Assembly: GCF_003788635.1 (NCBI RefSeq)
Contig: NZ_AYKH01000001.1
Location: 62,001 to 126,000 of the forward strand
DNA length: 64,000 bases
Direction: 5' to 3'
Source: Salinisphaera orenii subsp. orenii MK-B5
GTDB taxonomy: Bacteria; Pseudomonadota; Gammaproteobacteria; Nevskiales; Salinisphaeraceae
Below the pieces are notes generated by a model. It ran no database searches. It was given only the letters and a program-made list of their open reading frames with translations, and was not told where the DNA came from. Both the position numbers and the translations under genes were made by a program. Positions 21,675 through 31,057 of the stretch are shown in pieces; the stretch's first letter is position 1; the number at the start of each line of letters is the position of its first letter.

Positions 21675-21750
21675 GCCGGGGTAGCTCAGTCGGTAGAGCA
21701 ACTGATTCGTAATTAGTAGGTCGGAGGTTCGATTCCTCTCCCCGGCACCA
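21675..21750 (+). tRNA. tRNA-Thr (anticodon CGT)
   Basis: 76 bases including encoded CCA. Acceptor GCCGGGG pairs with CCCCGGC. Anticodon stem-loop ACTGA-TTCGTAA-TTAGT gives anticodon CGT, reading ACG. D-loop (AGCTCAGTCGGTAGAGC) and T-loop (GGTTCGATTCC) are canonical. It borders the accessory region to its right. Confidence 0.97.
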
Positions 21751-21777
21751 ATTAAAACCGGCACTTACACTTGAATC

Positions 21778-21801
21778 AGCCTCCCGTGTGGAGGCTTTTT
21801 T
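21778..21801 (+). terminator. Terminator after tRNA-Thr
   Basis: AGCCTCC, loop CGTGT, GGAGGCT followed by a T-run: a perfect 7-bp stem 27 bases past the tRNA. Confidence 0.85.
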
Positions 21802-21830
21802 GTGTCCATGGACACACTCTTGGACACACT
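21801..21830. repeat. 16-bp perfect palindrome with a repeated half-site next to tRNA-Thr
   Basis: TGTGTCCATGGACACA (21801-21816) is a perfect palindrome, and its right half recurs as TGGACACACT at 21821-21830. Such closely spaced sites just past a tRNA 3' end resemble the arm sites found beside tRNA-integrating tyrosine recombinase elements. No integrase gene and no duplicated tRNA end were found, so the link to a lost element is inference. Confidence 0.5.
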
Positions 21831-22035
21831 TTCATGGTTGGCATCGCGCTTGCGTGCGCGCATTCACTATTCGCACGCCACCGAAGTAGAAGGCCGCCTA
21901 CCCGATTTGCAATATTGGAGCCGGCGGATAACGCCCCGACCATTAAGGCGCTGCTGAAAAACACGCCCAGTCTGCGCGATACGTACAACGTAAGCTCGCA
22001 ACTTCTGGAGCCTGTTTGATACGAAGTCGGTAAAC

Positions 22036-22740
22036 TACCATCGTTGTTCTCTCACGCCCCGGGCGACGGATTTCGTCGCCGCCGAACATGCGCTACGCCG
22101 GCTCCGATCGCTGTTAGATGTGGCCTGACGCTCGATAGACGGGACGTAGACGATCAGCTATTCGCGTATCGGGTGACCGCGATCGCCCCGCGACGCCTTA
22201 TCCAGGCCTTGTTGCTTCGGATCCTGCACTGCACCGTCAGTTTCATCGCGCATCTTAGCTACAACATGCTCTATCGCTGGTTTATCGGCCTGTCGTTGAA
22301 CGATTCGGGCTGGGGTGCCGCGACCCTGACCAAAAACCGGCGGCGCTTTATCGATAGCCTATACATCGATTGTTTGCTCGACACCGTTGTCGACCCGACC
22401 ATATCCCGCCAGCGGTAACGCCGAAGTCAATGCTGAACTTTGAGTTATTGGATCCAAGACAGGGCGAATGCCGGCTGACCGTTGGCGCCGAAAAGAACTA
22501 TTACAGGCATCACTTTGCACGAGGTACGCGACGACGGGCAATACTACGCCGCATGTCGGTCAAAACATGCGGGGCCGCCCATACCAAGCGGGCCTTCGCC
22601 AGCTAGAACCTTGTACGGATGGCCGCCTCGGGGCGGCATGAGGGCGTTTCGGAGACGATATACCTATGAGAGGCAGATTTTGAACCATTCTGGTGACTGA
22701 GGCGGCTAACATATAAGCATAGGCCGGTGATTGACTTTTA
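22036..22740 (+). pseudogene. Decayed IS5/IS1182-type (DUF772) transposase
   Basis: No intact frame, but pieces in all three plus frames match this transposase type in order: FVAAEHALRRLRSLLDVA (near 22070-22125), RRLIQALLLRIL then LSYNMLYRWFIGLSLND and LTKNRRRF (22190-22350), GAEKNYY (near 22485-22505), NTTPHVGQN (near 22535-22560) and RHEGVSETI (near 22640-22660). A typical protein reads HPLR...LLRALLLQ...LDYNLLFRWFVGLSMDD...TKNRERL...VTPHVAQN...RHPGYAVSQ. Stops, frameshifts and a large internal deletion separate the pieces. No terminal inverted repeats could be defined. The flanks 21831-22035 and 22741-22878 hold nothing recognisable. Confidence 0.75.
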
Positions 22741-22878
22741 TCTTCTGGGCATACACAACGATTTTGTCACTATCGCAGAAGCGCCCTAGCGCATTCGGTG
22801 AAGCGTCGGCGCGACCATGAATCTCGCTAGTCCGACTTGAGAGCCTCGCCAATGGGGAATGTAGCGACGTCGCGAGTA

Positions 22879-24930
22879 TTAATCGCCGATAACTTCCCAC
22901 CACGTCAGCATGTGCGAAGGCTCTAGACTGTCGTCTTCCTTTCCGAGCGTGACCGTTGCGAGCGCCTCATCGTAGTGAATATCACCGCTGCCACTCATAT
23001 CAATGCGTTTGGCGACCACGCCACCATAAACATCGCCACTACCGGTGATCTCTACATCAGTCTCGGACGCGTATACCGCGATGAATGCGTCGTTGTCTCC
23101 ATCAATCGTGACGCCAGCTATCCCATTGCCACCGACTTGGTTATAGGCGCTGTAAAGCATTACCGCTGGACGCTTTTCGCCATCCGCTCCGGTCCGCACG
23201 AAAGAATCTTGGGTTACCAGGTTGGAGCCTCCCCCCAGCATAGTTTTCCCGGTTACGAAAAGTGTCAGGGTCGCACCATCTGCGACATCCAGCTGCGTAT
23301 TGCCACCAAGTTGGAAGTCGCCGAGCACGACAAGAGAGACATGTCCTTTAATCGTAAGCCGCTCAAGACGGCCGCCCGTGGTCGCATTATGATTGATCAA
23401 AAATAGGGTCTGTTTATCATCGGTACCGATAGTGGTGTTCGCGGCGTCCCGATCTCCTTCTCCTCCAGTGAATTCAAAGGCTGTGTCATTAATTTGATAA
23501 CAGTATTCGCAATCATTCACCTCGAACCACGAAGCCATCGTTCTAAGTCGACTGTCGTTGAGAACCTCCGTGAATACAGCACCGAGTTCTCCTGTTTCCG
23601 GATCTTTAACCTCCCAGGGTGCACAATCTAGACTGGGGTCATAGACGGGTTCAACCTCGGGAATATCCAGCTGAGATGGCGGCAAATTTGCGCTATAGCT
23701 CTGCAGGATGAGTCTTTTTTCGCTGTTATTTTTCCACCAATCCGGCACTTTGATCGCACCGCCGGCTTTGACAGATGGTGGTGGGCGGCTCGTGGATTCA
23801 ATATCGACCCGGCCACCCGCAACGACGCCGCCGTTACTGGCTGAGGCGCTTGAGAACGCCGCATCACCGCCCGCGGTGATCGTACCTTCCACTCGACCGC
23901 TCGAATCAAAGTTGCCTCCGACCACCGCATTGCCTTCGAGTATCCCGGATGTCCCAAAACTAACATTGCCGCCGACGATGAGATCTCCATAGATATGGCC
24001 ATTGAGATCGCTGTCGATGTAGTCTTCTAGGTAAGCATTACCGTTAACACGAACATCACCGAAGACAGGGGTCTGACTGTCCATCTGCAGGTTACCCGTG
24101 CTGATGAGATCGCCATAGATCGGCGAGTTGCCGTTGAGTGTTACGTTTGCATTGCGCTCACAAGTGCGGGAGGCGGCGCCGTCAAAGATCGACTCGGTGC
24201 CGCTATCCGTCGAATTACGGTTGACAAACGTCGACTCACCGGAGGTTACAGTCTCACCATATTCGCCATAACGCGAATCATAACTATCGATCTGTGCCCC
24301 CCCTCCAAGCGAGATGCCGTCGATACCGGTTACGCCGCCAGTGAATGGAGAGCGCACTTTGCCACGGCGGGGAGGAGCGATATAAGCGCCAACCGTTCGC
24401 CGCGCTACGATAGCTCCGCCTCGTGATATGTGCCCAGTCGATATAACTTCGAAACGCTCGGCGGCGGCATTCCAATAGCCGCCATCCGAGCCAGCCGCTG
24501 CGATGCTGAATTCAGCACCCGAATCATCGCCCAAAAGGGGCGCTGGAGTCTCATGTTCGCTTATTAGCGTTCGCCAAACTGACTCGATCTCATCATCGTC
24601 GCCGCTTGCGACCGCAGCACTCACAGCGTCACTGTCAGCGACGTTTCTGGCGACAGCCAAACCTGCTTCCGCTGCCAGAAAACTGTTGGCCTGCGTATGC
24701 TGATTGGCGGCCATGCGTTCTTGCAGGGTCGATTGATCCGCACTCGACAGCGTGATCATCGACAACAGCGTGAGCATAAGCATCGAGACAACGAGCGCCG
24801 CTCCGCCCTGGCGGGCCCCGAACGTTGCATGTGCGGACAGCGGCTGTCGCAAAACGCCGTGCCGACGTCGGCGATCCGATCTCATGGCGTCCCGGGCTGT
24901 CGTCGGTTGGGACGTGCTCAACCGACTCAC
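22879..24930 (-). CDS. Giant PilX-like minor pilin fused to bactofilin-like/beta-solenoid repeats
   Basis: 683 residues; ordinary PilX is about 170-200. A long Arg-rich leader precedes a prepilin-like segment (RQGGAALVVSMLMLTLLSMITL, about 40-62) and the PilX N-terminal block SSADQSTLQERMAANQHTQANSFLAAEAGL. Residues about 260-375 contain repeated G-N/G-D turns (IYGDLISTGNL, VFGDVRVNGNA, IYGDLIVGGNV, GTITAGGDA) like the polymer-forming bactofilin beta-helix. A second Gly-rich block (about 513-665; VVLGDFQLGGNTQL, DVEITGSGDVYGGVV) resembles a domain found in other long PilX-type proteins. Cys pairs occur, including CEYC. A GTG start overlaps the pilW stop (GTGA). Its DNA is visibly AT-richer than flanking genes, suggesting acquisition. 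The tip/adhesin role is inferred. Confidence 0.85.
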   Translation of the reverse strand: MSRLSTSQPTTARDAMRSDRRRRHGVLRQPLSAHATFGARQGGAALVVSMLMLTLLSMITLSSADQSTLQERMAANQHTQANSFLAAEAGLAVARNVADSDAVSAAVASGDDDEIESVWRTLISEHETPAPLLGDDSGAEFSIAAAGSDGGYWNAAAERFEVISTGHISRGGAIVARRTVGAYIAPPRRGKVRSPFTGGVTGIDGISLGGGAQIDSYDSRYGEYGETVTSGESTFVNRNSTDSGTESIFDGAASRTCERNANVTLNGNSPIYGDLISTGNLQMDSQTPVFGDVRVNGNAYLEDYIDSDLNGHIYGDLIVGGNVSFGTSGILEGNAVVGGNFDSSGRVEGTITAGGDAAFSSASASNGGVVAGGRVDIESTSRPPPSVKAGGAIKVPDWWKNNSEKRLILQSYSANLPPSQLDIPEVEPVYDPSLDCAPWEVKDPETGELGAVFTEVLNDSRLRTMASWFEVNDCEYCYQINDTAFEFTGGEGDRDAANTTIGTDDKQTLFLINHNATTGGRLERLTIKGHVSLVVLGDFQLGGNTQLDVADGATLTLFVTGKTMLGGGSNLVTQDSFVRTGADGEKRPAVMLYSAYNQVGGNGIAGVTIDGDNDAFIAVYASETDVEITGSGDVYGGVVAKRIDMSGSGDIHYDEALATVTLGKEDDSLEPSHMLTWWEVIGD

Positions 24931-25583
24931 AAGCCACTCTCCGTGTGCGTGAGCGGCGTCAACGTATTATTGCGAACCGCGACCGTGAATTCGATCGACG
25001 GCAACGCGCGATCAGACGGCGTCACCCCGACAGCCACGGCACCCCGAAACGTGAGATTGAGGCGCACCGTCCGCACGGCCTCAGCGTCGGTGATGCCGCT
25101 GGAGACATAGCGCAGATTGCCGTCGCCGGTCTCGACCCCGAACCAGATCCGGTTGAGGACCACCCCCTCAAGCAGCCCTTCTGGACTCTGACTGGTGCCG
25201 ATCTCGCGCTCAACGTAGCGAACTGTGGGATCGCCGCTTTCCGAGTCGGGCTCAAAGTCGTACACGGACTCGAATGCAGTCGCGCCCTCGCAGTAGCGCG
25301 CTGTGAGAATCCGCTCGGCGGCGTCCCAGGCCAGCGCCGCTGATAGTGCACCGCAATCGTCGCTCTGATAGCCCGCCATGCGGATATCCCGTGCCATGAA
25401 GTCGGTGAGAAAACGAATGTCCTCGGCGACCCTGTTGAGATGCGCCTGTGCGTCTTGGGTCTGACGACTCGCGGCGAACAGTCCGACCACACCCAGCAAC
25501 AGCAGACTGCCGATCAGCAGCGCAATCATCAGCTCGACCAACGCCAGGCCCTGCACGCGACGCTGTTTGTCGGCGAAATTCAT
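24927..25583 (-). CDS. pilW: Type IV pilus minor pilin PilW
   Basis: 218 residues. A prepilin leader ends at Gly 12 and is followed by LALVELMIALLIGSLLLLGVVGLF, with Glu at +5 as required for pilin assembly. The usual +1 Phe is Leu here. DFMARDIRMAGYQ is the conserved PilW segment after the helix. PilW belongs to the minor pilin complex that primes pilus assembly. It is coupled to pilV by ATGA and to pilX by GTGA overlaps. Confidence 0.92.
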   Translation of the reverse strand: MNFADKQRRVQGLALVELMIALLIGSLLLLGVVGLFAASRQTQDAQAHLNRVAEDIRFLTDFMARDIRMAGYQSDDCGALSAALAWDAAERILTARYCEGATAFESVYDFEPDSESGDPTVRYVEREIGTSQSPEGLLEGVVLNRIWFGVETGDGNLRYVSSGITDAEAVRTVRLNLTFRGAVAVGVTPSDRALPSIEFTVAVRNNTLTPLTHTESGL

Positions 25584-26152
25584 GCCGTACTCAACCGGAA
25601 CAGATAACGCAGCGAACGCGGATCATCGGTTGTCTCTTCGAGCTGGCTTCGCTCTGTCCACTGCAATGTCAGCTGATACACGCCGTCACCCACTGACTCC
25701 AGCGAGATGTCGACGGTACCGGCGAAAAGGCGACGCGTATTCGCCACCCACCGATGCATGTCGTATGTGGCAAGAGCCAGCGCACTGCAGTCAGCCTCCC
25801 CGCCCTGACAGTCCGTGGCCGTCTCGGTATCGTCGATGTCTTCGGGATCGGTTTCGACGTATGTGTCTAGCGCGGCCCGATTCGCACGCATGCGCTCTTC
25901 CAGATCCATCGCCTGGACGCTAGCGATCGATGCAAGGTACGCGCTGTGGCTGTAGGCCAGCGCATTCATCTGAAGCGCTAGCACGCCGAGGATTCCCACG
26001 GACAGAACGACCAATGCGATCAACACTTCGATGAGCGTGAAGCCTCGGACAGAACGCGGGCAGGCCTGAAGCGGACCAGTGCGCACGACCGCTGCTGCCC
26101 AAAGGCATGGTTCATTGCCACGTCCCGGTGGTGACCTTACACCTGTACCCAT
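25580..26152 (-). CDS. pilV: Type IV pilus minor pilin PilV
   Basis: 190 residues from the ATG at 26152. The class III leader ends SVRG and is followed by FTLIEVLIALVVLSVGILGVLALQ, with Glu +5. The downstream LASIASVQAMDLEERMRANRAA is typical of PilV. The start is uncertain: a GTG at 26194 extends it, and an in-frame GTG 15 codons before the cleavage site would give a more ordinary leader length. ATG 26152 has GGAGTCGAGG upstream. The stop overlaps the pilW start by 4 bases. It lies about 97 bases after fimT. Confidence 0.88.
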   Translation of the reverse strand: MGTGVRSPPGRGNEPCLWAAAVVRTGPLQACPRSVRGFTLIEVLIALVVLSVGILGVLALQMNALAYSHSAYLASIASVQAMDLEERMRANRAALDTYVETDPEDIDDTETATDCQGGEADCSALALATYDMHRWVANTRRLFAGTVDISLESVGDGVYQLTLQWTERSQLEETTDDPRSLRYLFRLSTA

Positions 26153-26249
26153 CCGATCGCGCCTCGACTCCGTCGCGCGATGCGTACACACCACGCAATA
26201 ACGGAAACGTTATCGGCAGCGTTCCCAGAAACCGAAGGCCTGAAGTAGA

Positions 26250-26753
26250 TCAGCAGTTGCCGTCGCGCTCAGTGCGCACTCGTCCCGTTCTCGATAGCAC
26301 AACCTCCCGCGATTGGTCTCCTGCGCAGAACGTGGTCGTGCCAGCAAGAAATGCACCGCCGGACTGTTGCGGCACTCCGCTCGGTCCAAATCGGATATAG
26401 GGATCCGATCCGCCGAAGTTCACGTTTATTCGAATATCGGATGCGGGCTGCCATGCGCGCTCGGTCGCACTCGCCGCCGCCGGGTCGGTCGTGATCAGCC
26501 AGCCCGAGGAGTAGCCGACACCGGTGCTGCAACGGGTGCCATCGCTGGACGGGCACACCAGCGCGATCCGCCCCTCGCGCACCGCGAGACTCCGAGCCCC
26601 CTGAATCGCTGCCACGTACTCGTTGACGCTGCTCGTTAGCCGCATCCGCTCGAGCAGAGAGGCAAACGACGGCACCGCGATGGTGGCGAGCAGACCTACG
26701 ATGAACACCGTGATCATCAGCTCGACCAATCCGAAGCCTCTGTTTTGCTCCAT
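26250..26753 (-). CDS. fimT: GspH/FimT family pseudopilin FimT
   Basis: 167 residues. The short leader MEQNRG is followed by FGLVELMITVFIVGLLATIAVPSF, then the FimT pattern SVNEYVAAIQGARSLAVREGR with VCPSSDGTRCS. FimT proteins are minor pilins, some of which bind DNA during transformation; comEC elsewhere in the window makes a competence role conceivable (inference). It is the first gene of fimT-pilV-pilW-pilX and is divergent from pilE. Confidence 0.92.
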   Translation of the reverse strand: MEQNRGFGLVELMITVFIVGLLATIAVPSFASLLERMRLTSSVNEYVAAIQGARSLAVREGRIALVCPSSDGTRCSTGVGYSSGWLITTDPAAASATERAWQPASDIRINVNFGGSDPYIRFGPSGVPQQSGGAFLAGTTTFCAGDQSREVVLSRTGRVRTERDGNC

Positions 26754-26853
26754 GTCCGCCCCCGCGCGTGACCGGCCCTATCGGACCTGTTGAAAAACGC
26801 TACGCGAGCCACACCACACGGTCAAAGCGCGCAATTCGGTTATTCTGAGTCGC

Positions 26854-27327
26854 ATGTCTATACATGTTCAGCAAGACAAAGCAACCTTCGGAAAGCCGTG
26901 TGTTAGCCCGTCATTCCTGTCGACGGACGAGGCACAGGGCCGGCGATGCGCGGGCGAAGGCAGCTCCGGGTTCACGCTCATCGAATTGATGATCGTGCTC
27001 TTGATCGTGGCGATACTCGCCGCGATCGCCTATCCCGCCTATACGGGATATCTACGAAGTGCGCAGCGCGCTGATGCTCAGGCCGCCCTCATGAATGCGG
27101 CGCAGCGACTGGAGCGGCGTTATACCGCCGCGGGCGAGTACAGCGCCGCGCAGACAACGATTGCTTCGGAGCAGGGATACTGGACGGTGAAGGTGGACAT
27201 CACGGATAGCGGCCAGAGTTATTTCCTCACCGCCCAGAAGACGGACAAGGGCGTGACGGACGCCACCTGCAGCGGCAGCATGACCCTAGACCCTCAGGGT
27301 CGACGCGAACCGGATTCATGCTGGTGA
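26854..27327 (+). CDS. pilE: Type IV pilin-like protein PilE
   Basis: 157 residues. The prepilin peptidase site is GEGSSG (Gly 39) followed by FTLIELMIVLLIVAILAAIAYPAYTGYLRSA with Glu +5. A C-terminal disulfide loop is suggested by Cys 139 and Cys 156. The 39-residue leader is long for a class III pilin; no closer in-frame ATG is seen. The protein resembles the PilE of minor pilin clusters rather than a major pilin, judging by context. In most gammaproteobacteria pilE ends the fimT-pilV-pilW-pilX-pilY1 operon; here it is divergent on the opposite strand and pilY1 is not found. Confidence 0.88.
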   Translation: MSIHVQQDKATFGKPCVSPSFLSTDEAQGRRCAGEGSSGFTLIELMIVLLIVAILAAIAYPAYTGYLRSAQRADAQAALMNAAQRLERRYTAAGEYSAAQTTIASEQGYWTVKVDITDSGQSYFLTAQKTDKGVTDATCSGSMTLDPQGRREPDSCW

Positions 27328-27538
27328 GCCCGTTTCATACGCGCCATTATCGACCCTCGCGACGACATATCGACAACGAACCAATTACCGAAGAGCATCG
27401 GTGCGGCCCGCAAGCGTTCAATCGACGCGACGAACGTCGTTCTCGGCGAACCCGGCCACTCTTGTCGATAACAAAAGCGAATGGCTGTCGGGGCACGCGC
27501 TCACGTCAGTTAGTTCTAGGCGTCTCCGGACCAAACAG

Positions 27539-28057
27539 TCAACGTACTGGCGGGTCATTCCGCCCAAAGAGCATGTCGACACCAAGCAGAATGGCGCCGA
27601 GCACGATGGCGCTGTCGGCGACGTTGAACGCGGGGTAATGCCAGCCCTGGATGTGAAAATCCACAAAGTCGATGACGTAGCCCCGGGTTGCGCGATCGAT
27701 GGCGTTGCCGAGCGCACCGCCCAGAATCAGCGCCAGCGACGCCGCGACCAGCCGCTCGCCGTGGGGATGGCGCCGCATCCAGATCAGGATGCCCACGGAG
27801 ACCAGCACGCTGAGTGCCACGAACAGCCACGGGGTGGCGCCGGCGAATATGCTGAACGCCGCCCCGGTATTGTGCATGAGCGTGAGGTTGAGCCAGTCGA
27901 AGACCGGAATACGATCGAATAGCGCCAGGTTGTTGACCACCAGCTGCTTGGTGATCTGATCGGCCACGATGAGCACGGCGGACAGCCACAGCCAGTGCGC
28001 GTTCTGTAGCTGGAAGCCCCGCTCGTGGGTCACGGCCTTTTCGGAGGAAGACGTCAT
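27539..28057 (-). CDS. lspA: Lipoprotein signal peptidase (signal peptidase II)
   Basis: 172 residues with four membrane helices. The catalytic Asp motifs GGALGNAIDRATRGYVIDFVDF and FNVADSAIVLG are intact, with the NNLALF and HNTGAAFS segments before them. It removes signal peptides from prolipoproteins in the inner membrane; the predicted amidase lipoprotein would be a client. The start is fixed by a 4-base ATGA overlap with the ribF stop. ileS normally separates ribF and lspA, and fkpB-ispH normally follow; none is present. Positions 27328-27538 hold no recognisable gene. Confidence 0.96.
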   Translation of the reverse strand: MTSSSEKAVTHERGFQLQNAHWLWLSAVLIVADQITKQLVVNNLALFDRIPVFDWLNLTLMHNTGAAFSIFAGATPWLFVALSVLVSVGILIWMRRHPHGERLVAASLALILGGALGNAIDRATRGYVIDFVDFHIQGWHYPAFNVADSAIVLGAILLGVDMLFGRNDPPVR

Positions 28058-28992
28058 GATGATCGGCGCTCTTGCAGGCACGCGCGCACGCGGTCGACGT
28101 CGCGGTGCATCTGGTCGGTCAGCGCCTCGAGCGAGTCGAAGCGCACTTCTTCACGGATAAACGACTCAAAGGATACGTCAACCCGCTGCCCGTATAAATC
28201 GCCCTCGAAATCGAGCAGGTACACCTCGAGCAGCGGCTCGCGCCCGTTGACCGTGGGCCGCACACCAAAACTCGCCGCGCCGCTTCGACGCGTGCCGTCG
28301 GCCAGCCCGACCTCGACCGCGTAGACACCGTAGCGCGGTGCAGGCCGACGGGCCAGCCGAATATTAAGCGTCGGAAAACCGAGCGTACGCCCCAGGCGTT
28401 CGCCAGTGACCACCCGGCCACTCACACGATAGCTGTGGCCGAGCAGGCGCGCGGCCTGATCCGGCCGGCCGTCGGCGAGCGCGCGCCGCACCCGGGTGGA
28501 ACTCACGCGGGCGCCGTCCACACAGATCTCCGGCAGCGGCGCGATGTCCACGCCGCGCTGCGCCGCATGGGCCCGGAGCAGCGCGACATCGCCCGTACGG
28601 CCCCGGCCGAAACGGAAATCTTCGCCGACGAGAATATGACGGGCGTCGAGTCGTCGTTCGAGCAGATCCGTGATGAACCTGTCCGCAGACATCGCCGCGA
28701 ATTCGGCATCGAAACGTGCGCAGGCGACGATGTCCACGCCCAGCGCGCGAGCGTCCTCGAGCTTTTCCCGCAGGGATGACAGCCGCGCTGGCGCGCCGTC
28801 CGGATCGAAAAAGGCCCGTGGCATCGGCTCGAACGTCATCACCACGCTCGGCAGCTGCAGTGCTCGCGCACGCTCGCGCAGGCGGGCGATGATCGCCTGA
28901 TGGCCGAGATGCAGGCCATCGAAGTTGCCGATCGTCAGCACGCAGCCGCCGGGCAACCCCGCGCAGCGCTGGACCGAACGGATCACGCGCAC
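28054..28992 (-). CDS. ribF: Bifunctional riboflavin kinase / FAD synthetase
   Basis: 312 residues. The N-terminal FAD synthetase domain shows LTIGNFDGLHLGHQAII, and the C-terminal riboflavin kinase domain shows TLGFPTLNIRL and GVRPTVNG. It makes FMN and then FAD from riboflavin. A GTG start 2 bases after the murJ stop is chosen, with GGCGGAG upstream; a second GTG two codons later is also possible. It is directly coupled to lspA. Confidence 0.95.
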   Translation of the reverse strand: MRVIRSVQRCAGLPGGCVLTIGNFDGLHLGHQAIIARLRERARALQLPSVVMTFEPMPRAFFDPDGAPARLSSLREKLEDARALGVDIVACARFDAEFAAMSADRFITDLLERRLDARHILVGEDFRFGRGRTGDVALLRAHAAQRGVDIAPLPEICVDGARVSSTRVRRALADGRPDQAARLLGHSYRVSGRVVTGERLGRTLGFPTLNIRLARRPAPRYGVYAVEVGLADGTRRSGAASFGVRPTVNGREPLLEVYLLDFEGDLYGQRVDVSFESFIREEVRFDSLEALTDQMHRDVDRVRACLQERRSS

Positions 28993-28994
28993 GA

Positions 28995-30560
28995 TCAGCG
29001 CTCCGCCGGCAGGGCGAGATGACGCGGCCGCACCCCGGCGAGCGCCAGGACGACGAAATAGACGCCGATACCGGCGCCCACCCAGGCGAACAGCCAGCCG
29101 ACGCGCTGCAGCGCCGCGCGCCCGACCCACACGTCCAGATCCGCGGCGCCGTAGACCAGCACCGCCGCCATCGCGGCGCAGCCCAGCAGCACACGCAGTG
29201 CCAGCCAGCGCCAGTCCGAGCCCGGCGTATACACCCGGTCCCGGCGCAGATACCGGTACAGCAGTCCGGCATTGACGAACGCGCCGAGCGAGGTCGCCAG
29301 CGCCAGGCCGGAATGGGGCGCGGGCAGGCTCAACGCCGTGAACGCCCCGACGAACAACAGATTCATGGCCATCGCGCTGACCATCGAAATCACGCCGCAG
29401 CGGACGGGCGTGCGCGAGTCTTCGCGCGAGAAAAAGCCGGTCACCAGCACCTTGACCAAGGAAAACCCCATGAATCCAAACGCATAGGCCATGAGCGCGT
29501 ACTGACTCATCAGCGCATCATGACCGGTGAAGGAACGATAATTGAACAACGTGGCCACCAGCGGCCCGGCCAGCACGAACAGGCCGATCATCGCCGGCAG
29601 CCCCAGCAGGACGATCATCTTCAGCGCCCAGTCCAGCGTATCCGAGAAAGCCGCTGCCGATCGGCTCGCATGGCGCGCGGACAGGTTCGGCAGGATCACC
29701 GTCGCGATCGCGATCGAGAACACCCCCAGCGGGAACTCCATCAGTCGGTCCGCGTAGTAGAGCCAGCTGACGCTGCCCGAGGCCAGAAACGACGCCATGA
29801 TCGTATCAAGCATGAGGTTGATCTGGGCCACCGACGAACCGAACAGTATCGGCAGCATTAGTGACAGAATGCGGCGAACCTGTGGATCGTGCCAGCCCCA
29901 GCGCGGACGCGGGAAATGCCCCAGCCGGGCGAGAAACGGCAGCTGGAAGGCGAGCTGGACCACCCCGGCGATCAACACGCCGATCGCCAGCGCGATCTCC
30001 GGGCGAGCGAACCAGGGCGCCAGTCCGATCGCGACACTGATCAGCGACAGATTGAGCAGCACCGGCGTGAACGCCGGCACCGCGAACTGACCGTAGGTGT
30101 TGAGAATACCGCCCGCGAACGCCGTCAGGGAGATGAACAGCAGATAGGGAAAGGTCAGCCGCAGCAGATCCACGGCGAGATCGAACTGCTCGGTCGCGCC
30201 GGCGAACCCGGGCGCGAATAGATAGATCAGCAGCGGCGCGCCGACGATGCCGACCACGGTCACACCAATTAGAATCACGCCGAGCGTGCCCGCGACAACG
30301 TTGATCAGATCCTGTGTGGCTTCGGTCCCGTCGCGGCTTTTCGTCGACGACAGCACTGGCACGAAGGACTGGGCGAACGCGCCCTCCGCGAACAGCCGAC
30401 GCATGAAATTGGGGATCTTGAAGGCGACGAGAAACGCGTCCATGCCCGGCCCGGCGCCGAACAGGATCGCGAACGCCATGTCGCGCAGAAACCCGAACAC
30501 ACGCGAAGCGAGCGTCATCACGCCGACCACGCCCGTGGATTTCGCTAACGACGATGCCAT
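28995..30560 (-). CDS. murJ: Lipid II flippase MurJ
   Basis: 521 residues, polytopic (about 14 hydrophobic segments) of the MVF superfamily. The start SSLAKSTGVVGVMTLASRVFGFLRD and the GMDAFLVAFKIPNFMRRLFAEGAF segment with conserved Arg residues are hallmarks. It flips undecaprenyl-linked peptidoglycan precursor across the inner membrane. ATG 30560 is preferred over the GTG just before it. It heads the murJ-ribF-lspA operon and is divergent from rpsT, as usual. Confidence 0.97.
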   Translation of the reverse strand: MASSLAKSTGVVGVMTLASRVFGFLRDMAFAILFGAGPGMDAFLVAFKIPNFMRRLFAEGAFAQSFVPVLSSTKSRDGTEATQDLINVVAGTLGVILIGVTVVGIVGAPLLIYLFAPGFAGATEQFDLAVDLLRLTFPYLLFISLTAFAGGILNTYGQFAVPAFTPVLLNLSLISVAIGLAPWFARPEIALAIGVLIAGVVQLAFQLPFLARLGHFPRPRWGWHDPQVRRILSLMLPILFGSSVAQINLMLDTIMASFLASGSVSWLYYADRLMEFPLGVFSIAIATVILPNLSARHASRSAAAFSDTLDWALKMIVLLGLPAMIGLFVLAGPLVATLFNYRSFTGHDALMSQYALMAYAFGFMGFSLVKVLVTGFFSREDSRTPVRCGVISMVSAMAMNLLFVGAFTALSLPAPHSGLALATSLGAFVNAGLLYRYLRRDRVYTPGSDWRWLALRVLLGCAAMAAVLVYGAADLDVWVGRAALQRVGWLFAWVGAGIGVYFVVLALAGVRPRHLALPAER

Positions 30561-30591
30561 CACTCAAACCGTGAACCGCAGAATGCGGCGC

Positions 30592-30620
30592 ACTATAGCG
30601 GCAACCCGACCGGCACTAAA
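30592..30620 (-). promoter_or_regulatory. Candidate promoter of murJ-ribF-lspA
   Basis: Minus strand TTTAGT (30615-30620) and TATAGT (30592-30597) with 17-base spacing, about 32 bases before the murJ ATG. Confidence 0.5.
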
Positions 30621-30638
30621 GGCGAGTGCTCCAAAAAG

Positions 30639-30667
30639 TTGACAACGCGCCCCCGAATCACAATAAT
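30639..30667 (+). promoter_or_regulatory. Promoter of rpsT
   Basis: Perfect -35 TTGACA (30639-30644), 17-base spacer and AATAAT (30662-30667), 48 bases before the rpsT start. One of the strongest promoters in the window. Confidence 0.78.
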
Positions 30668-30714
30668 CGCGCGCCTGACAACGATTCATCCGACCGATTT
30701 CTCAGGAGCTGTCC

Positions 30715-30987
30715 GTGGCGAATTCTGCCCAAGCCCGCAAGCGCGTCCTCCAGGCCGTCACCCGTCGTGAACGCAACATGGCGCAGCGCTCGCTGGTGCG
30801 TACCCATATCAAGAAGGTCCGCAAGGCGATCGCCGCCGGTGACTCCGCCGACGCCATGGCCGCGTTCAAGGCCGCGGTACCGATCATCGACCGCATGGCC
30901 GGCAAGGGCCAGATCCATCGCAACAAGGCCGCCCGTCACAAGTCGCGCCTGAACGCCCAGATCAAAGCCATCAGCCAGCAGGCCTGA
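30715..30987 (+). CDS. rpsT: 30S ribosomal protein S20
   Basis: 90 residues, very basic. It begins MANSAQARKRVLQAVTRRERN and ends with HKSRLNAQIKAI, matching S20 along its length. It starts with GTG preceded by CAGGAGC; rpsT in E. coli also uses a weak non-ATG start (TTG), which permits autoregulation, so the GTG may be functional. It binds 16S rRNA early in assembly. Monocistronic, with its own promoter and terminator, divergent from murJ. Confidence 0.97.
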   Translation: MANSAQARKRVLQAVTRRERNMAQRSLVRTHIKKVRKAIAAGDSADAMAAFKAAVPIIDRMAGKGQIHRNKAARHKSRLNAQIKAISQQA

Positions 30988-31033
30988 TAGACAGACAAGA
31001 TCGGCGGCGATCCCCGACGCTGCCGAGATCGAA

Positions 31034-31057
31034 GAAGCCCGCTCGCGCGGGCTTTTT
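31034..31057 (+). terminator. Rho-independent terminator after rpsT
   Basis: AAGCCCGC, loop TCGC, GCGGGCTTTTTT: a perfect stem with T-run, 47 bases past the rpsT stop and between the convergent rpsT and proB. Confidence 0.93.

Follow-up and report, generated by a model that had tools for sequence, protein, structure and literature searches.

Priming, capping and adhesion of type IVa pili are commonly attributed to PilY1 and the minor pilins. The PilX of Myxococcus stabilises PilY1, and it is PilX that was assigned the top position in the tip complex (PMC7541494). Other systems carry additional modules on the pilin itself. PilB and PilC of Streptococcus sanguinis have a functional module grafted on the pilin and are proposed to be tip-exposed and adhesive (PMC8179133), and ComZ of Thermus thermophilus is a minor pilin with a large beta-solenoid of the ice-binding-protein type, which is argued to lie at the tip and binds DNA (PMC6561018). 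The PilBac1-5 cluster of Shewanella oneidensis ends in PilBac5 (SO_0850), a pilin adhesin with a bactofilin motif (PMC4376143). In MSHA pili the putative adhesin is MshQ, loss of which lowers surface MSHA (PMC7096442). Large modules on pilins and a beta-solenoid pilin with a proposed tip location (ComZ) are established in this literature, and a pilin adhesin with a bactofilin motif (PilBac5) has been noted.

The window analysed here is a stretch of 64,000 nucleotides from Salinisphaera orenii subsp. orenii MK-B5, and it contains a fimT-pilV-pilW-pilX operon whose last gene encodes a PilX of 683 aa, compared with approximately 200 aa for an ordinary PilX (about 185-220 aa in congeners). The first-pass annotation had described a PilX-type product of this length in the place of an ordinary PilX, with two Gly-rich regions, a beta-solenoid body and AT-richer DNA than its neighbours, and the measurements below agree with each part of that description, the Bactofilin match being below its cut-off. 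The long pilX gene starts with GTG at 24930 and overlaps the stop of pilW by a few bases; residue 16 is encoded by ATG and is a possible alternative start. The GC content of the gene is 0.556 and its GC3 is 0.566, against a GC3 of 0.75-0.87 in the flanking genes on both sides, with the partner pilin genes (0.66-0.76) in between. All five pilin ORFs of the block are intact, and an intact PilQ secretin is present in the genome. Beyond the long pilX, the 1.1 kb at 21751-22878 is low in GC and gene-poor, with one doubtful ORF of 124 aa. The coordinates of the features are collected in Table 1.

Table 1. Features of the minor-pilin locus, in positions of the window.
Feature	Position	Strand	Remarks
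tRNA-Thr (CGT)	21675..21750	+	left edge of the swapped block
Swapped block	21751..27564	.	conserved tRNA-Thr to last lspA codons; unlike the clusters of congeners
Long PilX, 683 aa	22879..24930	-	PilX-type pilin N-terminus and two putative beta-solenoid segments
DUF7305 domain / second putative beta-solenoid, residues 516-659	22954..23385	-	strands from residue 476
First putative beta-solenoid, residues about 263-410	23701..24144	-	bactofilin-like, 18-residue period
PilX_N domain, residues 43-92	24655..24804	-	prepilin-type N-terminus, then long alpha-1 helix
pilW-type minor pilin, 218 aa	24927..25583	-	N_methyl 5.2e-5; PilW 0.011, sub-cutoff
pilV-type minor pilin, 204 aa	25580..26194	-	TIGR02523 type_IV_pilV 2.4e-24; Tt1218-like
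fimT/fimU-type (GspH family) minor pilin, 167 aa	26250..26753	-	GspH 3.2e-14
pilE/ComP-type minor pilin	26854..27327	+	divergent from operon; ComP_DUS 2e-15

The N-terminal part of the long PilX is that of a pilin, with a match to PilX_N (PF14341) at 2.8e-12, above the cut-off of the profile search, and a prepilin cleavage site (RQGG/AALVV) in which Glu5 is absent. No match to the PilX C-terminal domain (PF13681) was obtained at E 1 in the 683 residues. DUF7305 is matched above its Pfam cut-off (2.1e-14), and Bactofilin (PF04519) is matched at residues 293-378 with 4.4e-5 and 24.1 bits, under the cut-off of 27.9 that a Pseudoalteromonas homologue exceeds with 31.7 bits. Glycine amounts to 17% of residues 263-400 and 16% of residues 481-660, as opposed to 2.5% of residues 401-480. 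Gly, Asn and Asp positions recur with a period of 18 residues within 263-400 (p = 0.004 relative to shuffled versions of these residues), the length expected of a single turn in a three-sided beta-helix, so that the repeat pattern of the first solenoid goes beyond chance; the same periodicity test gave no 18-residue period in the second Gly-rich region. The C-terminal Trp motif of the protein is conserved among its homologues.

AlphaFold models of the long PilX, built from an alignment of three sequences, have mean pLDDT values of 51 and 57. They contain an N-terminal helix at residues 42-95, runs of three-residue strands at 263-410 with pLDDT mostly 75-85, and a second run of strands at about 476-655 with pLDDT of roughly 53-78, while the pilin head and the C-terminus fall below 50 and the head is unresolved in the models. 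The fold matches of both models in the PDB are mostly beta-solenoids (tapirin, ice-binding proteins, haemolysin/filamentous haemagglutinin secretion domains and ComZ), with no match below an E of 0.2 and none significant, so they indicate only the class of fold. A sequence search of the PDB with the long PilX returned no solved chain below E 0.5. On this evidence, the predicted solenoid is well supported at the level of fold class but not in its structural detail.

The long PilX shares with the canonical PilX and PilY1 pair (PMC7541494) its position in the operon, PilX_N and the FimT, PilV and PilW partners, at the same site as the set of the congeners, and differs from it in having neither PF13681 nor PilY1 but two putative solenoid segments instead. 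Like ComZ, it is a minor pilin with a predicted beta-solenoid that is encoded beside other minor pilins; it gave no sequence match to ComZ, however, whose solenoid sits ahead of the final strand of the pilin fold and which binds DNA. The modular pilins of S. sanguinis similarly combine a pilin module with an extra non-pilin module of putative function, although that module is a vWA or lectin domain in PilB and PilC and solenoids here. With bactofilins it shares a predicted beta-helix of 18-residue turns and a weak Pfam similarity, but bactofilins are cytoskeletal polymers and the long PilX has a pilin export signal. The published description of PilBac5 mentions neither DUF7305 nor the replacement of a canonical locus nor a missing PilY1. 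The earlier suggestion of an alternative tip design is partly supported by the domain make-up and the loss of PilY1, but the design is not without precedent, as PilBac5 and ComZ represent the same idea. Three things are new, as far as we searched: near-identical relatives differing by a swap at a canonical locus, the loss of PilY1 that goes with it, and the link between DUF7305 and MshQ.

No PilY1 was found in this genome with the Pfam model PF05567, which as a positive control detects the protein in 57/60 sampled relatives, including 13/13 congeners. Searching with the complete PilY1 protein from the sister species likewise gave no match in the genome, and a search of the swapped block for a remnant of PilY1 gave nothing convincing and nothing below E 0.026. 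The canonical minor-pilin locus is complete and contiguous, and the long PilX is the only PilX_N protein of the genome. The absence of PilY1 from the genome is strongly indicated by these searches rather than proven, because the assembly is a 98% complete draft in 44 contigs.

At the same site, the congeners have, where read, a normal fimT-pilV-pilW-pilX-pilY1-pilE cluster in one direction, bounded by the fba/tRNA/amidase side and by lspA-ribF-murJ. In the window the orientation of the pil operon is reversed relative to the congeners and pilE is divergent. Over 27564-31050 the window and the sister species G012 share 97.5% identity, but G012 has kept an ordinary PilX-PilY1 cluster whose pilins are only about 33-37% identical to those of the window. 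The identity with G012 breaks off within the final codons of lspA; on the left side, the tRNA-Thr gene is 90-98% conserved in several congeners, is the final stretch that still matches ahead of the pil genes, and flanks the pil cluster in several congeners too. These comparisons support the replacement of the whole minor-pilin cluster by transfer, with a breakpoint inside lspA, and agree with the proposal in the first-pass annotation that the gene was brought in from elsewhere. PilY1 is present in 13/13 congeners, and on the simplest interpretation it was therefore the species of the window that received the new cluster. A search of plasmid and phage collections gave no match and no mobile-element carrier, and an integrase-type insertion is not supported, there being no repeat of the tRNA 3'-end of at least 10 bases near the right border; exchange through the flanks is for this reason the likelier route. 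No donor was found; FimT, PilV, PilW and PilE lie at similar distances from every cluster in the comparison. To the right of the block, lspA and ribF overlap directly (28054-28081), and the ileS gene that usually separates them is missing both here and from the loci of the congeners.

DUF7305 is also found in MshQ-type proteins together with DUF6701 (L093:6781-9537 in G303 and L095:5822-9544 in G271), the gene in G303 lying downstream of a set of MSHA-type pilin genes. The long PilX resembles MshQ in the presence of DUF7305 next to a minor-pilin operon, but in MshQ the domain belongs to a separate chain that is not a pilin, and here it is fused to a PilX pilin. Large frames with DUF7305 in the class are mostly not long pilins; two are confirmed as MshQ-type and two are VgrG-like. 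Two homologues of the long PilX have a weak, sub-cutoff match to pAdhesive_15, an ice-binding-like, putative adhesive domain. A search run without a positive control found no DUF6701 protein in this genome, and no mention of DUF7305 was found in the literature searched.

A first scan of contigs found no relative, and an alignment-based query found two. Homologues at 38-40% identity have conserved domains, and those of Halomonadaceae T82-2 (38%), G044 and Pseudoalteromonas MMG010 keep PilX_N, Bactofilin and DUF7305, some under the curated cut-offs. Proteins with PilX_N and DUF7305 are the sole PilX, with PilY1 undetected, in G000, G136 and G422, and stand alongside PilY1 in G044, G385 and G411. 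In Pseudoalteromonas MMG010 the long form is the only PilX_N match and PilY1-like proteins are present too; in Halomonadaceae T82-2 PilY1 is undetected and a second, ordinary PilX adjoins the long one. The homologues are therefore not always accompanied by a normal PilX and PilY1, as G422, G136 and T82-2 illustrate. The design is compatible with PilY1 elsewhere and often stands without it, and the replacement is not universal. The T82-2 locus (L097:8103-14317) has two adjacent minor-pilin sets, of which one terminates with a long solenoid PilX and the other with an ordinary PilX.

Across the class, we split a sample of genomes having a PilX_N protein by the presence of PilY1, and counted a genome as long-only if every PilX_N frame over the cut-off, read from stop to stop, had at least 350 aa. 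Long-only genomes make up 16/57 of those without PilY1 and 2/70 of those sampled with it (p = 5e-5), or 13/48 against 1/63 when counted by genus (p = 6e-5), in a comparison where the 350-aa cut was picked after viewing the data and the genomes are related. DUF7305 was found in one of five scanned long PilX proteins from this count, below the cut-off, and no solenoid family was detected in several others counted as long. About two thirds of the genomes lacking PilY1 are without a long PilX, and many of these have an ordinary short PilX, so the loss of PilY1 does not require the long-PilX design. PilX proteins of 356-416 aa in PilY1-less genomes (L116, L120, L122, L124 and L131) have a C-terminal Trp motif (SWRDF, TWRDW, TWIDN) and mostly no Pfam match beyond PilX_N. 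In two relatives, long frames include a normal PilX C-terminal domain; in L061:8447-10057 the PilX domains are followed by roughly 350 further residues, and in L060:8780-10483 they are at the C-terminal end of the frame.

We have moderate confidence in a reading in which one modular PilX chain takes the place of the PilX and PilY1 pair in this genome, where PilY1 is undetected, having arrived together with its own minor pilins in the exchange of the whole cluster. The N-terminal pilin module would assemble with FimT, PilV and PilW into the minor-pilin complex, which initiates a type IVa pilus and remains at its tip, and the bactofilin-like and then the DUF7305 solenoid segments may form a rigid binding body projecting from it, most likely as a surface adhesin. 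The tip position would follow by analogy with the placement of PilX in Myxococcus and with ComZ; we infer the adhesive role and the actual production of the pilus in this organism. The fusion of a tip pilin to a domain otherwise present on a tip-adhesin candidate (DUF7305 in MshQ) argues for a tip made of one chain. The earlier proposal of a single chain acting as both tip pilin and adhesin gains from the absence of PilY1 here and its presence in 57/60 relatives, but homologues that coexist with PilY1 in G044, G385, G411 and MMG010 speak against it as a general rule. More tentatively, a solenoid PilX may serve type IVa pili as a one-chain tip for both priming and adhesion and as a cassette exchangeable between species at the canonical minor-pilin locus.

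The main rival, which we consider rather unlikely, is a DNA receptor resembling ComZ, whose solenoid would capture DNA for transformation, the absence of PilY1 reflecting a competence pilus. ComZ is itself a DNA-binding solenoid pilin with a proposed place at the tip (PMC6561018); its structure (6qvi) and many ice-binding proteins are among the weak fold matches, and the neighbouring genes include a Tt1218-like pilV and a ComP-type pilE. However, the fold matches are not significant (ComZ has an E of about 2), no sequence match to ComZ or another solved chain lies below E 0.5, the ComP_DUS matches may be general to this class of PilE, and DUF7305 in MshQ points to adhesion. A slightly weaker candidate is an ordinary minor pilin whose insert is decorative or structural, in which case priming and adhesion would fall to another protein or to a diverged or unassembled PilY1; the 44 contigs of the draft, the homologues coexisting with PilY1 and the two thirds of PilY1-less genomes that manage without a long PilX all fit this possibility, whereas the complete and contiguous locus, the failure of both the Pfam model and the whole PilY1 of the sister species to match anything, and the success of that same model in 13/13 congeners are against it. 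We regard it as very improbable that the cluster was acquired horizontally in a non-functional state and that the strain no longer makes this pilus, because the low GC and the gene-poor 1.1 kb alongside, which would suit such a remnant, are set against five intact pilin ORFs, domains conserved with homologues of 38-40% identity and an intact PilQ.

The long PilX gives a candidate setting for the uncharacterised DUF7305, which is common to tip pilins and MshQ-type proteins. The natural swap of alleles between close relatives, PilX and PilY1 in one and a single solenoid PilX in the other, offers a ready-made test of whether the pilus needs PilY1 itself or any bulky module at the tip.
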